Source: a virus. From it: a stretch of 21,881 bases of DNA. The DNA is taken from positions 1 through 21,881 of IMG/VR virus record IMGVR_UViG_3300025120_000646, one strand, 5' to 3'. This document shows, piece by piece, positions 6,464 to 15,989 of the stretch. The notes beneath the pieces were generated by a model. It saw only the letters and a list, made by a program, of their open reading frames with translations. It was not told the DNA's origin and searched no databases. Numbering within the stretch: position 1 is the stretch's first letter; each line of letters begins with the position of its first letter. The translations under genes were made by a program, and so were the position numbers.

Positions 6464-7138
6464 ATGCCGTTTTTGCAGAGCAATATCCCACACTTCAAGT
6501 GCTGGGTTCGCCGCGAGTATACTGTAAACCATGAACGTTATCATGGTGAATTTTTACACGCTATGGCAATAGCCGTAACTACCATGCCTAACCGTTGTTT
6601 AAGCTTTCAGCTTATTTTTACGGGATGCGAGGTGGACGAAGAGGGGGGAGAGAACGTGCATGGCGGAGCTATGTGGGCCCGAATGCCCATAACGGCTTTA
6701 GTTGCAGACGAACCTTTAGAGGATTGGCCCAAACCAATGGCAGTACATGAAGCACAACCTTGGGACTGCCCTTCACATACTCACGCGGCGTATGTGTTAG
6801 AAAGGGCCTCTCCTTGTCCGTGGTTAGCCAAAATAGACGGAACGTTCTTCCCAGCAAAGTACATGTTTACTGTAGATTACACCGATACGGATGTTGCGGA
6901 TGATCCTGCGCAACACAAGCAGGCTCATGTATTGCAGCTATTAAACGCGGGGGATTGGACAGGAAACATTGTGGGTCTTCCTAATAACCGTGTGAGGGTG
7001 ACGCATCCCGCGTGGTTTGAAACGGGGGAAGGTGCGCCTGACTTCAAGCCGTCTCAGCATGTACATTACTCTAAATCTGATCTAGACTACACCTTAGACG
7101 TTAATCGAATATTCGATAATCTGTACAACGAGGAATGA
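6464..7138 (+). CDS. Conserved marine-phage protein (MPFLQSNIPHF family), unknown function
   Basis: A 224-residue protein beginning MPFLQSNIPHFKCWVRREY, a start I recognise from conserved proteins in marine phages, followed by NVHGGAMWARMPITALV (64-80), AQPWDCPSHTH (97-107), and LPNNRVRVTHPAWF (176-189). It is rich in His, Trp and Cys, with possible metal-binding clusters in WDCPSHTHAAY, but no enzyme family that I can name. Here it opens the neck block, directly before a connector-like protein. Compact soluble architecture and strong motif conservation suggest a dedicated virion or assembly role. The gene starts 5 bases after the basic cassette with no clear ribosome site, so coupling is likely. 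Confidence 0.75.
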   Translation: MPFLQSNIPHFKCWVRREYTVNHERYHGEFLHAMAIAVTTMPNRCLSFQLIFTGCEVDEEGGENVHGGAMWARMPITALVADEPLEDWPKPMAVHEAQPWDCPSHTHAAYVLERASPCPWLAKIDGTFFPAKYMFTVDYTDTDVADDPAQHKQAHVLQLLNAGDWTGNIVGLPNNRVRVTHPAWFETGEGAPDFKPSQHVHYSKSDLDYTLDVNRIFDNLYNEE

Positions 7139-7139
7139 C

Positions 7140-7808
7140 ATGGCAGTTTCTAACAGCGTGGATTTTGAGCTAGATGTAGCTGAGTACGTCGAAGAAGCCT
7201 TTGAGCGTTGCGGTTTGGAGGTTCGAACAGGCTATGATTTTAAAACGGCAAAACGGTCGTTAAATTTAATGTTGGCAGAGTGGGCCAACAGAGGTTTAAA
7301 TCAATGGACAATAGCGCAACGCACCGTGACCATGACACAAGGCACCGGAGAGTATTCGTTATTACCGGACGTTATTGATATTTTGTCTGCGGTTATCCGC
7401 AGGGACGGCACGGATTACGCGCTGCTTCGTTTAAGCCGAGAGGAATACCAAACGGTTCCCGACAAGTCTTCTCAAGGCAGACCCAACCAGTTTTTCTTGG
7501 ATCGTCAAATCACGCCTAGTTTAAAAATATGGCCTGCGCCAGAAAACAGTACGGATGTTGTGTATTACAACGCGCTTACTCGTATGAATGATGCGGATAC
7601 AGCTATAAACACGTTAGACATGCCCTTTCGATTTTATCCCTGTCTAGCTGCAGGTTTAGCGTATTACATTGCTATAAAGCGGGCCCCGCAACGCGTTCAG
7701 TTATTAAAGGCGGTGTATGAAGAAGAGTTTGAACGTGCCATGACTGAGGATCGTGACAGGGCTTCGTTTAACGTAGTACCTCAATACCAGTACTTTAGGA
7801 CAGGCTGA
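7140..7808 (+). CDS. Neck / head-tail adaptor protein (P22 gp4-like), predicted
   Basis: The 222-residue protein opens with FELDVAEYVEEAFERCGLEV, then KTAKRSLNLMLAEWANRGLN at 37-56, a helical-bundle start typical of podovirus portal-adaptor proteins (P22 gp4 type). A beta-rich middle (GTGEYSLLPDVIDILSAVIR) and a C-terminal helix pair (ERAMTEDRDRASFNV) complete the pattern. Adaptor rings sit under the portal and receive the nozzle. Short GAGGAATGAC precedes the ATG, and the stop overlaps the next ATG (TGATG). No lysozyme motif is visible, although P22 gp4 itself has wall-cutting activity. Assignment is from pattern and position. An SU10-type adaptor lies at 8590, so two stacked adaptors may be present. 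Confidence 0.72.
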   Translation: MAVSNSVDFELDVAEYVEEAFERCGLEVRTGYDFKTAKRSLNLMLAEWANRGLNQWTIAQRTVTMTQGTGEYSLLPDVIDILSAVIRRDGTDYALLRLSREEYQTVPDKSSQGRPNQFFLDRQITPSLKIWPAPENSTDVVYYNALTRMNDADTAINTLDMPFRFYPCLAAGLAYYIAIKRAPQRVQLLKAVYEEEFERAMTEDRDRASFNVVPQYQYFRTG

Positions 7809-8581
7809 TGGGTAAGTTTGCCAGCGGTAAAAACGCCCTTGCGATATCAGATCGTTCCGGTTTTCGGTACAGATATAAAGACATGCGGCGGGAGTGGAAT
7901 GGCCTGTTGGTTGGTAAGGACGAGTTTGAGCCCAAACAGCCGCAGCTAGGACCGTTTAGAACGGTTTCTGATCCACAAGCCTTAAAAGACGCTAGGCCAC
8001 AAACGCTAGATCGTACCGCGGCATTTCAAGTAATAACTACTAACGGTATCGTCTACGAGGGTAACGGCGTTTGGACAACCAGTGGTGTGACGGAAATGCC
8101 CTCTTCTATTGCGTCCTTACCCTCTTTAACGTCGGGCGTAGGCTCTGTTACGGTAAACACGTCGGGCGGAACATCCGTAGATGTGTCGGTTACGGGGGTA
8201 TCAGGCACAGCAGCATCAGGCTCTGTTACTGTTACCAGCAACGTCTATATTGTTACAGTGGCTAGTGGCACTAATCCTTATGGAACGGGCAATAAGTTCT
8301 ACATAGACGGGGTTGTTAGCCCGACGATTAGTTTAGCAGAGGGCAGCACGTTTAGGCTTGACCAATCGGCCTCGTCCAATAGTAGCCATCCATTACGGTT
8401 CAGCACCACTGCAAACGGTACACACGCGGGCGGCTCTGAGTACACTACGGGCGTAACCACGTCGGGAACGGCGGGTCAGGCTGGTGCGTATGTTCAAATA
8501 ACTGTCGCAAATTCTGCCCCAACCCTCTATTACTACTGCACCAACCATAGTGGTATGGGCGGAACGGCGAACACACCATAG
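7808..8581 (+). CDS. Virion protein with predicted C-terminal cupredoxin (type-1 copper) domain
   Basis: Three parts are visible in this 257-residue protein. Residues 1-65 carry a conserved-looking start (LAISDRSGFRYRYKDMRREW) common in neck-region proteins. Residues 105-145 hold one copy of a SVTGVSGTAASGSV unit like the repeats of the gene at 14766. Residues 146-257 look like a cupredoxin sandwich: GNKFYIDGVVSPTISLAEGS, TFRLDQ, SHPLRFST, then a TLYYYCTNHSGMGG ending. The four ligands of a type-1 copper site are present in order: His194, Cys244, His247, Met250. The C-x2-H-x2-M spacing equals that of amicyanin (C-T-P-H-P-F-M). Copper binding is predicted, not shown. The gene sits between two adaptor-like genes, so it is probably a virion surface or neck component. 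Confidence 0.75.
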   Translation: MGKFASGKNALAISDRSGFRYRYKDMRREWNGLLVGKDEFEPKQPQLGPFRTVSDPQALKDARPQTLDRTAAFQVITTNGIVYEGNGVWTTSGVTEMPSSIASLPSLTSGVGSVTVNTSGGTSVDVSVTGVSGTAASGSVTVTSNVYIVTVASGTNPYGTGNKFYIDGVVSPTISLAEGSTFRLDQSASSNSSHPLRFSTTANGTHAGGSEYTTGVTTSGTAGQAGAYVQITVANSAPTLYYYCTNHSGMGGTANTP

Positions 8582-8589
8582 GTGATTGA

Positions 8590-9237
8590 ATGAGCTATAC
8601 ATACGCAACATTAAAGCAAGCCCTCCAAGATTATACGGAGAATACGGAGACTTCGTTTGTAAATAATCTGCCCCTTTTCATACGGTCTGCAGAAGAACGC
8701 ATTTTAAAATCCGTTCAACTAAACCTGTTTAGAAGAAACGCTTCGGGAGTTATGTCGCAAGGTAATAAGTATCTTAGGGTGCCAGATGACTTTTTAGCGC
8801 CGTATTCCTTGAGCTATACCAGTGGTTCGGAAGAGGTGTTTGTAGAGTTTAAGGACGTTAGTTTTATACAGACGTACAACCCAGACTCAACGGTTACGGG
8901 TTTGCCGAAGTATTATGCCTCGTTTGATGTTAGTAATTTTATTTTAGCTCCGACTCCAAATGCGTCCTTTACTGCGGAGCTTCATTATTTGTACCGCCCT
9001 GCAAGCTTAACTGCAGGGTCGGACAGTGGCACGACATGGTTGAGTGAAAATGCAGAGTTAAGCATCCTGTACGCTTCGTTAATAGAGGCGTATATCTTTA
9101 TGAAAGGTGAGCAGGACGTTATGGCAATGTATGACAAGCGATATCAAGAGTCGTTGGTTGGCTTGAAGTTGTTGGGTGAAGCAAAAGAAACAACACAGAA
9201 CTATCGTGTCGGTCAGGTTGTGAGGGAGAAACAATGA
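8590..9237 (+). CDS. Head-tail adaptor, SU10-adaptor-like
   Basis: The 215-residue protein matches the pattern of the phage SU10-type adaptor family: helical start YATLKQALQDYTENTETSFV with NNLPLFIRSAEERILKSVQL (residues 24-43), a beta-sandwich middle (YLRVPDDFLAPYSLSYTSG, then LPKYYASFD and FILAPTPNASFTAELHYLY), and a C-terminal helical part with SLIEAYIFMKGEQDVMAMYDKRYQE. The series F(I/V)..AE.RI...V...R..NASG, P.DFL.P.SL and Y.FMKG is diagnostic of this group in marine phages. It would form a ring between portal and tail. AGGTGA at 8581-8586 serves the ATG at 8590. Its end overlaps the next start (ATGA). Confidence 0.8.
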   Translation: MSYTYATLKQALQDYTENTETSFVNNLPLFIRSAEERILKSVQLNLFRRNASGVMSQGNKYLRVPDDFLAPYSLSYTSGSEEVFVEFKDVSFIQTYNPDSTVTGLPKYYASFDVSNFILAPTPNASFTAELHYLYRPASLTAGSDSGTTWLSENAELSILYASLIEAYIFMKGEQDVMAMYDKRYQESLVGLKLLGEAKETTQNYRVGQVVREKQ

Positions 9238-10015: not shown

Positions 10016-11164
10016 ATGACCGTATCGCTAGGAAACCGTGCAAAAATGTCCACCAGTACCACGGGTACTGGAACGATTACATTGGGCAGCGCGGTTTCTG
10101 GCTTCCAAACCTTTGCGGATGCTGGCATCACTAATGGTCAGACGGTGCGTTATGCCATAGACGATGGCGCTAATTTTGAAATAGGCAGTGGTACTTATAC
10201 ATCTAGCGGCACCACGCTTACGCGGTCTGTTACGGAAAGTTCTAACTCTGACAGTGCTATCTCTCTTAGCGGTAGTGCCGAGGTATTTATTGCAGCAACT
10301 GTCGCGGATTTAAACCCTCTTTATGCTGCCAACGAAAGCAGTCCATCAGCGCAACCAAGTGCGACCGGAACAAATGCAGTAGCTATAGGTGATAGTGCTG
10401 CGGGTTCTGGTACAAATTCTATAGCACTTGAAAAATCAAGAGCAAGTGGCACAAGAAGTTTTGCGGTGCAAAATAACAGCACGGCTTATGGCGCTACGGG
10501 TACAGGATCAGTGGCAATAGGTAATGCTGCTTACTCAACAGGTAGTAACTCTGTAGCGATAGGACAGGGTACAAATGCAACTTCTACGGGTTCAATATGT
10601 ATTGGTCAATCTTCTTCCGCCTCAGCGCCCGGCAGTATTGCATTCGGAAATAACGTCTATCTGCAAGGTACTGGCTCTGTTGGTTTTGGTAAAGACGCCT
10701 ATGACAATGACATTGACGGTAAATTTGCTTTTGGTCGTGACCCTCTAAGTAATCAACGAGACGTTGGTGGTGGATTGTTTGTTTTAGGGTGTTCAACTAC
10801 TGACGCTACTGCAACTACTTTAACTACTTATAGCACAACCCCCACAGCAACTAACCAAATAACTTTAAAAAATAAAGCAGCCCTTGTTTTCAACGGATTA
10901 ATTGTAGGGCGTCAAGATTTTACAGACGGCACAGATACAGCCGCTTTTAAAGTTCAAGGTATTATTAGGCGAGAAGCTAATGCTGGAACAACTGTGTTGG
11001 TAAATTCTACTGTAGATACTATTCAAAAAACTGTATCTACTATGGCTTGTACTGTATCTGCTGATACTACTCTTGGGTGTGTAAAAATACAAGTTACAGG
11101 TATTGCTGGTCACAATATTAGGTGGGCAGGAAATATATCTACTGCAGAAATAGAGTACACATAA
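10016..11164 (+). CDS. Tail fibre A with YadA-head-like repeats
   Basis: Residues 1-95 form a fibre N-terminal module (GNRAKMSTSTTGTGTITLGS, FQTFADAGITNGQTVRYAID, GTYTSSGTTLTRSV). Residues 118-240 hold YadA-head-type repeats with the NSVAIG signature (NAVAIGD, GSVAIGN, NSVAIGQ, GSICIGQ, GSIAFGN, GSVGFGK), expected to fold as a trimeric left-handed beta-roll as in trimeric autotransporter adhesins. Residues 252-382 are a C-terminal domain (TTDATATTLTT...ATNQI, AFKVQGIIRRE, GHNIRWAGNISTAEIEYT) shared with the next gene. The protein is 382 residues and the module order fits a receptor-binding side fibre. It follows the upstream stop by one base, with no clear ribosome site. Confidence 0.82.
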   Translation: MTVSLGNRAKMSTSTTGTGTITLGSAVSGFQTFADAGITNGQTVRYAIDDGANFEIGSGTYTSSGTTLTRSVTESSNSDSAISLSGSAEVFIAATVADLNPLYAANESSPSAQPSATGTNAVAIGDSAAGSGTNSIALEKSRASGTRSFAVQNNSTAYGATGTGSVAIGNAAYSTGSNSVAIGQGTNATSTGSICIGQSSSASAPGSIAFGNNVYLQGTGSVGFGKDAYDNDIDGKFAFGRDPLSNQRDVGGGLFVLGCSTTDATATTLTTYSTTPTATNQITLKNKAALVFNGLIVGRQDFTDGTDTAAFKVQGIIRREANAGTTVLVNSTVDTIQKTVSTMACTVSADTTLGCVKIQVTGIAGHNIRWAGNISTAEIEYT

Positions 11165-11179
11165 CAGGAGTAATAAATA

Positions 11180-12628
11180 ATGGGTTCTATCAATTTAGAT
11201 CACGCAGGCTCTGGTGGAGCAATTACGTTATCTAGTGATGGCACTGATCTCTTACTAGGTGGTAGTGCTATTGGTGGCGGCGGAGCTTCTGCTTTAACTA
11301 TAGAATCCAAAACTTCTGCTTATACCGTAGTAGCAGGTGATCTTGGTAAAGTTATAAATTGTACTTCTGCTTCGTTTACTATCTCGCTGACTGCGGCAAG
11401 TACTTTGGGTGCGGGTTTTAATGTTGTTATTTGGAATACGTCAGATACTAATTCACATGCAATTACGATTGATCCAAACAGTTCTGAAACAATAGATGGA
11501 TTAGCTACCTTAATTCTTAGGCGTGGAGAGGGTATGCAAGTTGTCTGTGATGGTAGTAATTTCCAAACAGGCGATAAAAAAACAATGCGGGGTTATGCGG
11601 ATAATATACTCAGCACTGAAGCACGACCCGTTGCCTCTGGAAATAGAAGTATTAGTTTGGGGCCATTGTCTACGTCCACTCAAGCTGAGTCATTTAGTGC
11701 AGGTTATTATGCAAGAGGAACGGGTGCGTACTCTGTTGCCATAGGGGGAAGGCCGACAGCCTCTTCAACAGGGGCTATTGCGATTGGATTTGAAGCATCT
11801 GGTACAAGCGTAATGGCAACTGCCATCGGCGGCAATTCTAATTCTCAGGGTGCTAAAGCTTCGGGTTCTGGTTCAGTTGCGTTGGGTGGTTCGTATGTTA
11901 GTGGGGCTGACGGTTTCGCAGTAGCTGTAAAAAACAACACTTCAAGTTATGGGGCGAGTGGTGCTAACTCGCTGAGTATTGGCCTTAACGCAAAATCAAC
12001 GGCTGGGAACTCAGTAGCGATAGGTTCAAGAACTCTCTCTAGTAATGCTTCTATTGCTATCGGTACTAGCTATGCAAATTATGGTGTTGTCGCTTCTGGT
12101 ATGAATAGTATTGTGCTTGGTGACGGTAGTGCCGCTTCACAAACATCGTCCGTGGCTATTGGGTATGGTGCTAATTCAAACATAAAAGGTAAGTTTGTTT
12201 ACGCATCTAAAAGTTTTGGTGGTGGTAATGCAGAAGGCAGCGCACAAGGCGGCATGTTTATTTTGATGTCAGATACTACTGACGCCACAGCAGAAGCTAT
12301 GACAACAGATAAAGCAACAGCAGATGCAACTAATCAAATCGTAGCCGCTACAGATACGTGCATTACTTTTTCCGGCACAGTCGTAGCAATGCAAAATGGC
12401 GCTCAATCCTACAGTAGCTGGGAGATTAAAGGGCTGTTAGTCAATGATGGCGGGACTACGACAGTACCTACCAGCGCAATCACGGTGATTTCCAACACCT
12501 CAAGCTGGGGTTTAGCTTTGTCTGCGGATAACACAAACAATGCTTTGACAGTACAAGTAACTGGAGAAGCAGCACACAATATAAGGTGGGTGGCGAACAT
12601 TCAAACGGCGGAAGTCACCTATGCTTAA
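11180..12628 (+). CDS. Tail fibre B with YadA-head-like repeats and the same C-terminal domain as fibre A
   Basis: The 482-residue protein starts with a short docking-type module (MGSINLDHAGSGGAITLSSD, then LLLGGSAIGGGG), followed by a beta-rich phage-fibre domain at about 40-130 (AYTVVAGDLGKVINCTSASF, DPNSSETIDG, VVCDGSNF). About 150-345 carry YadA-head-like repeats (YSVAIGG, GAIAIGF, MATAIGG, GSVALGG, NSLSIGL, NSVAIGS, SIAIGTS, NSIVLGD, SSVAIGY). Residues 358-482 repeat the C-terminal domain of fibre A (TTDATAEAMTT...ATNQI, WEIKGLLVND, AHNIRWVANIQTAEVTYA). AGGAG at 11165-11169 precedes the ATG by ten bases. Tandem duplication with exchange of N-terminal modules is the likely origin. Confidence 0.82.
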   Translation: MGSINLDHAGSGGAITLSSDGTDLLLGGSAIGGGGASALTIESKTSAYTVVAGDLGKVINCTSASFTISLTAASTLGAGFNVVIWNTSDTNSHAITIDPNSSETIDGLATLILRRGEGMQVVCDGSNFQTGDKKTMRGYADNILSTEARPVASGNRSISLGPLSTSTQAESFSAGYYARGTGAYSVAIGGRPTASSTGAIAIGFEASGTSVMATAIGGNSNSQGAKASGSGSVALGGSYVSGADGFAVAVKNNTSSYGASGANSLSIGLNAKSTAGNSVAIGSRTLSSNASIAIGTSYANYGVVASGMNSIVLGDGSAASQTSSVAIGYGANSNIKGKFVYASKSFGGGNAEGSAQGGMFILMSDTTDATAEAMTTDKATADATNQIVAATDTCITFSGTVVAMQNGAQSYSSWEIKGLLVNDGGTTTVPTSAITVISNTSSWGLALSADNTNNALTVQVTGEAAHNIRWVANIQTAEVTYA

Positions 12629-14765: not shown

Positions 14766-15989
14766 ATGCTTGGTTTTTCCCCACTAGCTGGAGCGCCTCT
14801 TGCTAGTTCTGGTAGAGTTTCTGCGTCAGTATCTGTATCTGTTACGGGTGTAGCTGGAACAGGTGCGGTAGGCTCTGTAACTACCACAAGCGCGGCTGAT
14901 ATATCCGTAACAGGGGTCGGGGCAACAGGCGGTGTTGGCTCTGTAACCACCACAAGTGCGGTAGATATTACTGCCACAGGCGTGTCAGGCACGGGTTCTG
15001 TTGGTTCTTCTACAGTAACAGGCGATGCAAATGTCACTGCTACAGGCATATCAGGCACGGGCGGCGTTGGTTCTGTTACCACTACCAGCACTGCCGACAT
15101 ATCTGTTACAGGCGTCTCTGGCACAAGTGCAGTAGGCGGAGCGGCAGCTTCTACCGATTTAGAGATAGGTGTTACAGGCATTGCTGCTACGGGGTCTGTA
15201 GGTTCCGCGTCCATTACAAGTGAATCTAATCTTTCTGTTACGGGCGTGTCAGGCACAGGTTCTGTTGGCTCAGTATCCCCGGGCTTTAGACAATCTGTTA
15301 CGGGCGTGTCAGGCACAGGAGCAGTAGGAAGCGTATCTACAACAAGTAGCGCAGTTATATCCGTTACAGGTGTAGCGGCTACAGGCGCAGTAGGAAGCGT
15401 GTCCGCTAACAATGATTCTTCTATCTTTGTTACAGGCGTTGCTGCGACAGGTGCAATAGGCACCACCACCACAACATCTGATGCAGATATTTCTGTCACG
15501 GGAGTTTCGTCCACGGGTGCGGTTGGTTCCGCAACGACTACTTCTTCCGCAGACATATCGGTTACAGGCGTAGCAGGCACGGGTGCGGTTGGTTCTTCGT
15601 CCACTAGAGTTGACAACTCTATTTCGGTCACGGGCGTAGCAGGCACAGGTGTTGTTGGAACTGCTTCAATTACTGCAGACAGCACTCTATCGGTCACAGG
15701 CGTTTCTGGTACAGGTGCGGTAGGATCGTCTACAGTTAAGATTGATGTAGATGTACCCGTCACGGGCATTGCAGCTACAGGCGCAGTTGGTTCTTCTACC
15801 ATTAAAGTTGACAACTCTGTTTTCGTTACAGGCGTTGTTGGTACGGCGGAAGTAGGAAATGTTTTGGTTTGGTCAAAGATTGAACCAGATCAAACGTCTA
15901 ATTTCTCTAGTATAACGCCTTCGCAATCTTCGGGGTTTTCTAGTATAACCCCCTCACAAACCCCGTCTTGGACGGATATCGCTGCGTAG
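14766..15989 (+). CDS. Fibre-like virion protein built of sixteen 22-residue repeats
   Basis: A 407-residue protein. It opens MLGFSPLAGAPLASSG, a start common in marine phage virion proteins. Residues 24-367 are sixteen near-repeats of about 22 residues with the core SVTGVxxTGAVGS, e.g. SVTGVSGTGAVGSVSTTSSA. One unit (the seventh) is two residues shorter. Residues 368-407 are VWSKIEPDQTS, then FSSITPSQSSGF, FSSITPSQTP and SWTDIAA, a repeated W/F..I.P.Q ending. The repeat would give two short beta strands per turn, so a beta-solenoid or extended fibre shaft is likely. There are no Cys, few charges and many Thr/Ser/Gly. The chaperone-like gene just upstream fits a tail-fibre function. It starts 2 bases after the small ORF. 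Confidence 0.72.
   Translation: MLGFSPLAGAPLASSGRVSASVSVSVTGVAGTGAVGSVTTTSAADISVTGVGATGGVGSVTTTSAVDITATGVSGTGSVGSSTVTGDANVTATGISGTGGVGSVTTTSTADISVTGVSGTSAVGGAAASTDLEIGVTGIAATGSVGSASITSESNLSVTGVSGTGSVGSVSPGFRQSVTGVSGTGAVGSVSTTSSAVISVTGVAATGAVGSVSANNDSSIFVTGVAATGAIGTTTTTSDADISVTGVSSTGAVGSATTTSSADISVTGVAGTGAVGSSSTRVDNSISVTGVAGTGVVGTASITADSTLSVTGVSGTGAVGSSTVKIDVDVPVTGIAATGAVGSSTIKVDNSVFVTGVVGTAEVGNVLVWSKIEPDQTSNFSSITPSQSSGFSSITPSQTPSWTDIAA
14835..15866 (+). repeat. 66-bp coding tandem repeat array, about 16 units
   Basis: DNA units of about 66 bp encode the VTGVxxTGAVGS repeat. Divergence is mainly at third codon positions and in the 8-residue spacers. Neighbouring units share runs of identity. 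For example, a 26-base identical run begins at 15234 and again at 15294. The 60-base spacing there reflects the two-codon-short unit. Such arrays commonly change copy number by slippage or recombination. Confidence 0.85.

Follow-up and report, generated by a model that had tools for sequence, protein, structure and literature searches.

The best fold match to the phage domain described here is the N-terminal cupredoxin domain of the Hyphomicrobium denitrificans nitrite reductase (2dv6, 6tfo, and 6tfd; Z 8.4–8.8, rmsd 2.8–2.9 over 97 aa), which has a type-1 copper fold but shares ~16% amino acid identity and forms part of a bacterial enzyme, not of a virion protein. Rusticyanin also matches in fold (Z 6.7–7.7) and shares the C..H..M loop, although it is a cellular electron carrier with a longer ligand-loop spacing. 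All four ligands of the Pfam family PF00127 (Copper-bind; plastocyanin, azurin, pseudoazurin, and amicyanin) align with the phage domain, where the first ligand His is followed by HP instead of HN. Multicopper oxidases (CueO, laccases), in which the type-1 His sits in an HPF-type motif, are the top Foldseek matches, but the phage protein carries a single such domain without type-2/3 copper motifs. A plant-named family, PF25489 (At5g54830-like domain), is weakly matched by 21 of the 78 members of the domain alignment (best E 7e-4). Among phages, PSS2 gp080 belongs to the same fold family as a stand-alone 112-aa protein encoded in the tail gene region, in which other residues stand in place of the first His, the Cys, and the second His (states D, A, T, M). 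The HxH iron sites of T4 gp37 and the fibre of alterophage R22Y are likewise metal sites on tailed-phage virion proteins, and marine phages are discussed alongside them (PMC11705849); as described there, these sites bind iron through His-only motifs on trimeric fibres, whereas the domain reported here has another fold and another predicted metal.

The window analysed here is the 21,881-base virus record IMGVR_UViG_3300025120_000646. The DNA is that of a marine phage and encodes a 257-aa protein whose C-terminal domain (aa 146–257) belongs, judged by sequence and predicted fold, to the blue-copper (cupredoxin) superfamily and keeps all four copper-binding residues (Table 1). A literature search of limited scope and partial coverage returned no report of a virion cupredoxin, an absence that is not proof. 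PHROGs label relatives merely as tail fibre, baseplate wedge, or structural proteins, and no Pfam family covers the window domain.

Table 1 Features of the cupredoxin-carrying gene and its flanking genes, in window coordinates.
Feature	Position	Strand	Basis
SU10_adaptor-family gene, upstream	7140..7808	+	PF24175, E 1.5e-17
Cupredoxin-carrying gene, probable neck/virion protein	7808..8581	+	ORF, 257 aa; homologues share the architecture
N-terminal small beta module, aa 4-45	7817..7942	+	Modelled beta segments; zinc-ribbon-like without cysteines
Linker, aa 48-143	7949..8236	+	pLDDT <50; SVTGVSGTxxxGSVTV-type repeats
Cupredoxin domain, aa 146-257	8243..8578	+	AlphaFold2 model; matches to solved cupredoxins and, by profile, to members of the PF00127 family
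His194, predicted first copper ligand (SHPLRF)	8387..8389	+	Invariant in 78-sequence alignment; aligned with ligand His of cellular cupredoxins
Cys244, predicted copper ligand	8537..8539	+	Alignment conservation and profile comparison; sole Cys of the protein
His247, predicted copper ligand	8546..8548	+	Alignment conservation and profile comparison
Met250, predicted axial ligand	8555..8557	+	Alignment conservation; Gln in one P-RSM6 copy
Stop codon of the 257-aa gene	8579-8581	+	
SU10_adaptor-family gene, downstream	8590..9237	+	PF24175, E 5.9e-20

The full-length AlphaFold2 model of the protein divides into three parts: the beta module, the linker, and a separate C-terminal domain. The N-terminal module is modelled with pLDDT values of mostly 86–88 over aa 11–40 and matches PHROG 28581, for which PHROG assigns no function. 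Four relatives (L022, L024, L048, and L184) contain CxxC..CxxC where the window module reads SDRS..VGKDEF, while most relatives resemble the window in having SDRS..VGxDE in place of the cysteine pairs. The module therefore resembles a zinc ribbon stripped of its four cysteines, and the cysteine-bearing form in L024 itself gives a weak Pfam match (DZR, E 0.023). At 8129–8250 the linker region is similar to the SVTGVSGTxAVGSVTTTS repeats found in another ORF, of 407 aa, at 14766–15989, and in three relatives (L046, L052, and L065) a repeat protein of the linker type begins with the cupredoxin domain. In pelagiphage HTVC027P the equivalent gene product, gp65, has the N-terminal module, and a profile search found no cupredoxin domain anywhere in that genome.

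An earlier note on this DNA, made from the sequence alone, had proposed that aa 146–257 carry the cupredoxin ligands in the correct order, and reading the ORF bears this out: H194 is followed by C244-x2-H247-x2-M250. The only His residues of the protein are at positions 194, 206, and 247. This arrangement conforms to the sequence pattern of a type-1 copper site (a His followed, on the last loop, by Cys-x(2-4)-His-x(2-4)-Met). The C-x2-H-x2-M spacing is as the note had described it; it is found in the ligand loop of amicyanin and also in a solved copper nitrite reductase, 2vmj (CTPHPFM). The three sequence blocks that had been taken for strands are modelled as such at residues 181–185, 228–232, and 240–244 in the full-length prediction, with which the model of the isolated domain agrees.

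The C-terminal domain was modelled by AlphaFold2 from an alignment of 78 sequences, giving a metal-free model of high confidence (pLDDT 94.8, pTM 0.87). In VIA-align searches of solved structures 2dv6 ranked first (Z 8.8, rmsd 2.8), followed by rusticyanin, laccases, and CueO, and the 50 entries listed all belong to the cupredoxins, the multicopper oxidases, or proteins related to these, such as SufI. Foldseek against the PDB placed CueO first with a probability of 0.98, although its E-values are weak (0.028 for CueO). The confident model and its best solved matches both describe a Greek-key beta sandwich of the ~100–120 aa expected of a cupredoxin, so that structure comparison, which could have overturned the proposal by returning another fold, upheld it. 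The VIA Z scores are moderate and could reflect a common arrangement alone, and the sequence evidence therefore matters. Two short proteins of pithovirus-like giant viruses, annotated as “beta-sandwich proteins” in BFVD (A0A481Z6J5 and A0A481Z7Q7), also match the domain fold (E 3.6e-4 and 2.8e-3).

A relationship to cellular cupredoxins is detectable in sequence. When the 78-sequence phage alignment was compared by hhalign with four or five cellular PF00127-matching proteins, probabilities were 95.5–96.7%, and the four phage residues (His, Cys, His, and Met) fell on the cellular ligands. This register lends indirect support to the prediction that the four side chains converge on a single type-1 site. 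Copies in two cultured phages bridge the remaining distance: those of P-SSM5 (E 5e-4) and P-HM2 (E 1e-3) fall just under the curated cut-off of PF00127 and match plastocyanin, amicyanin, rusticyanin, or a Cupredoxin 1 entry in the PDB. A Flavobacteriaceae domain (L267) that lies above the PF00127 cut-off is close to these two copies (1.5e-23, small set). The window protein itself does not reach that cut-off and has no Pfam match, and PF00127 is weakly matched by 6 of the 78 relatives (best E 0.0062). Nor does the window domain match the amicyanin family TIGR02657, for which two of the 78 give weak matches (best E 0.029); the C-x2-H-x2-M loop is one amicyanin feature and does not make the domain an amicyanin. 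Searching the PDB directly with the full 257-aa sequence gave no relevant match, and the profile of 78 sequences retrieved just three weak chains, one of them a pseudoazurin (E 0.22). Antibody heavy chains matched by a first, small profile were rejected as chance hits through a YYC motif.

The other members of the 78-sequence alignment are 35–97% identical to the window domain, and the sole invariant columns are H194, Y242, C244, H247, and M250, although the seed patterns of the scans contained the Cys and the second His, which inflates the conservation of these two positions. Both codons are in use at H194 (CAT 95, CAC 89), C244 (TGT 126, TGC 58), and H247 (CAT 97, CAC 87); therefore, the amino acids are conserved while silent sites vary. 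Free variation of the Cys and the two His residues among homologues, which the earlier note had named as a ground for rejecting its proposal, is not what the alignment contains. Because the domain forms a homologous family in which the four ligands are invariant across 78 sequences, the ligand set is more than a chance occurrence.

An alignment restricted to the N-terminal part, with which the Cys/His/Met could have been assessed free of the bias of the seed patterns, contained no block sufficiently conserved for searching. To avoid that bias, 20 complete phage records were therefore searched by profile, which recovered copies in 19 of them. Once one duplicate and three cut fragments are set aside, every Cys-bearing copy (25/25) also keeps the first His; 23 have the full ligand set, one carries Gln in place of Met, and one differs in spacing. 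Among copies without the Cys, the first His is absent too in 16 of 21. The association of His and Cys has a Fisher p of 2e-8, which is not readable as a probability because the copies are related, and on a tree of poor resolution the losses cluster into some six changes or groups, which leaves too few pairs for a tree-aware test. Joint retention is accordingly described here as a pattern and not as a claim of significance. Gln in the place of the axial Met, seen in the P-RSM6 copy, also occurs in stellacyanin-type cupredoxins. Across these sequences the fold survives without the ligands, yet the ligands, where retained, stay together as a complete group, an argument for selection on a metal site.

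This pattern bears on an improbable alternative, in which the domain is a purely structural, cupredoxin-like beta sandwich that binds no metal; its ligand residues would be fossils, or would be retained as a surface motif or because they aid packing. Virions are commonly decorated with beta-sandwich domains, and paralogous baseplate and fibre copies that lack all or most of the ligands indicate that phages do use the fold structurally. Fossil ligands, however, would decay singly, whereas all four occur together in the 23 complete copies (with the Met-to-Gln and altered-spacing cases besides), and the four are the most conserved positions of the domain. That ligand-free copies exist while intact copies keep the full set weakens the case for incidental ligands.

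Relatives of the domain were found in >500 viral contigs and in 107 phage records, which are marine phages wherever a name or host is given, with cyanobacteria, Pelagibacter, Methylophilales, and Roseobacter as hosts. A further 31 contigs are assigned to marine bacteria or archaea, some of which are probably phage pieces. Cellular-looking relatives include a SAR86 protein of 167 aa that begins with a lipobox-like sequence (L191) and surface-type Flavobacteriaceae proteins of very great length (L188); among the plasmids searched there was no relative. In phages, the module occurs in tail fibres (near the C-terminus in those of pelagiphages), in the S-TIM5 “virion structural protein and packaging”, in baseplate gp7 of P-HM2, in an S-MS29 protein annotated as baseplate wedge and tail pin, and in several PHROG tail families. 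Phage 023Pt_psg01 has it as an N-terminal fusion to the homologue of the window’s upstream adaptor gene (35% identity over 231 columns). Shuffling of the module between proteins of the neck, adaptor, tail fibre, and baseplate is the strongest evidence for a virion location of the domain, which is very probable, and we regard the domain as a mobile surface module that marine phages carry on their virion proteins.

The position of the gene between two adaptor-like genes, also remarked on in the earlier note, is confirmed by the Pfam SU10_adaptor matches of both flanks, and its product is probably a neck or head-tail-junction protein. PMC9509320 describes the SU10 adaptor as a dodecamer that is placed between the portal and the nozzle and holds the long tail fibres. 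For P-SCSP1u, the cryo-EM account in PMC10575957 leaves distal fibre parts unresolved and so has no bearing on the domain. Elsewhere in the window, a 224-aa gene product (6464–7138) matches PHROG 3704 “ferredoxin” (E 2.7e-28), a label that is doubtful because the protein has no CxxC motif. YadA head repeats occur in the neighbouring ORFs at 10016–11164 (E 2e-14) and 11180–12628 (E 7e-16), which suggests that the products are trimeric and fibre-like. At 997–1452, ahead of the capsid genes, lies the gene for a GroES-type co-chaperonin (Cpn10, E 7e-12), an order also seen in 023Pt_psg01 and HTVC027P.

Our preferred overall explanation, to which we assign a probability of roughly 0.6, is a neck protein with a mobile cupredoxin domain that binds copper and is used for docking or adhesion. 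Copper would be the metal predicted from the ligand set and the modelled fold. The domain would bind a single copper ion, acquired from seawater or in the course of lysis; the ion would fix the two ligand-carrying loops, and the metal-locked domain, presumably exposed on this particle, could then offer a rigid surface for docking or adhesion during adsorption. Taken by itself, the docking role is tentative, with the odds leaning slightly against it.

We favour such a copper-stabilised docking or adhesion module over electron transfer. A redox-active blue copper domain that exchanges electrons with a partner on the host surface or in the periplasm at adsorption or ejection, for example as a tail-opening trigger, would agree with the complete type-1 ligand set, which is typical of electron carriers, and with the presence of rusticyanin and the nitrite reductase N-terminal cupredoxin domain among the closest structural matches. 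It is nevertheless very unlikely: no virion partner or enzyme is known, the clearly cellular relatives examined resemble surface proteins and lipoproteins rather than soluble carriers, and the ligand His is followed by HP-type sequence where many carriers have HN.

Equally hard to credit is a copper version of the iron “Trojan/Ferrojan horse”, in which a host metal-uptake or metal-binding surface protein would recognise virion copper and direct attachment. The iron-binding HxH motifs of T4 gp37 and a related marine-phage hypothesis, both described in PMC11705849, speak for it. The location of the domain near the C-terminus of pelagiphage fibres would also suit it, but the window copy is on a neck-associated protein and not at a fibre tip, a type-1 site largely buries its copper, and no receptor is known. 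Least probable of all is a structural site for another metal such as zinc: His2-Cys-Met sets can bind other soft metals and one copy has Gln replacing Met, but the fold and ligand order match copper proteins specifically.

Returning to the proposed copper-binding docking module, the recurrence of the domain on tail and baseplate proteins in many ocean phages raises the possibility of copper-carrying particles. A more sweeping proposal holds that the neck, tail-fibre, and baseplate proteins of numerous ocean phages bear type-1 cupredoxin domains loaded with copper, and that this copper is required for attachment or for triggering ejection. It is speculative and probably goes too far; if true, it would define a class of virion metalloproteins without a report in the literature searched. 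If copper is bound, many abundant marine phages would bear a metal cofactor on their particles, copper would become part of the debate on phages and marine trace metals, and the way in which cyanophages and pelagiphages interact with their hosts would gain a testable point of entry. Hundreds of virion proteins that lack annotation also acquire a recognisable module, for which the naturally ligand-free copies serve as built-in controls.
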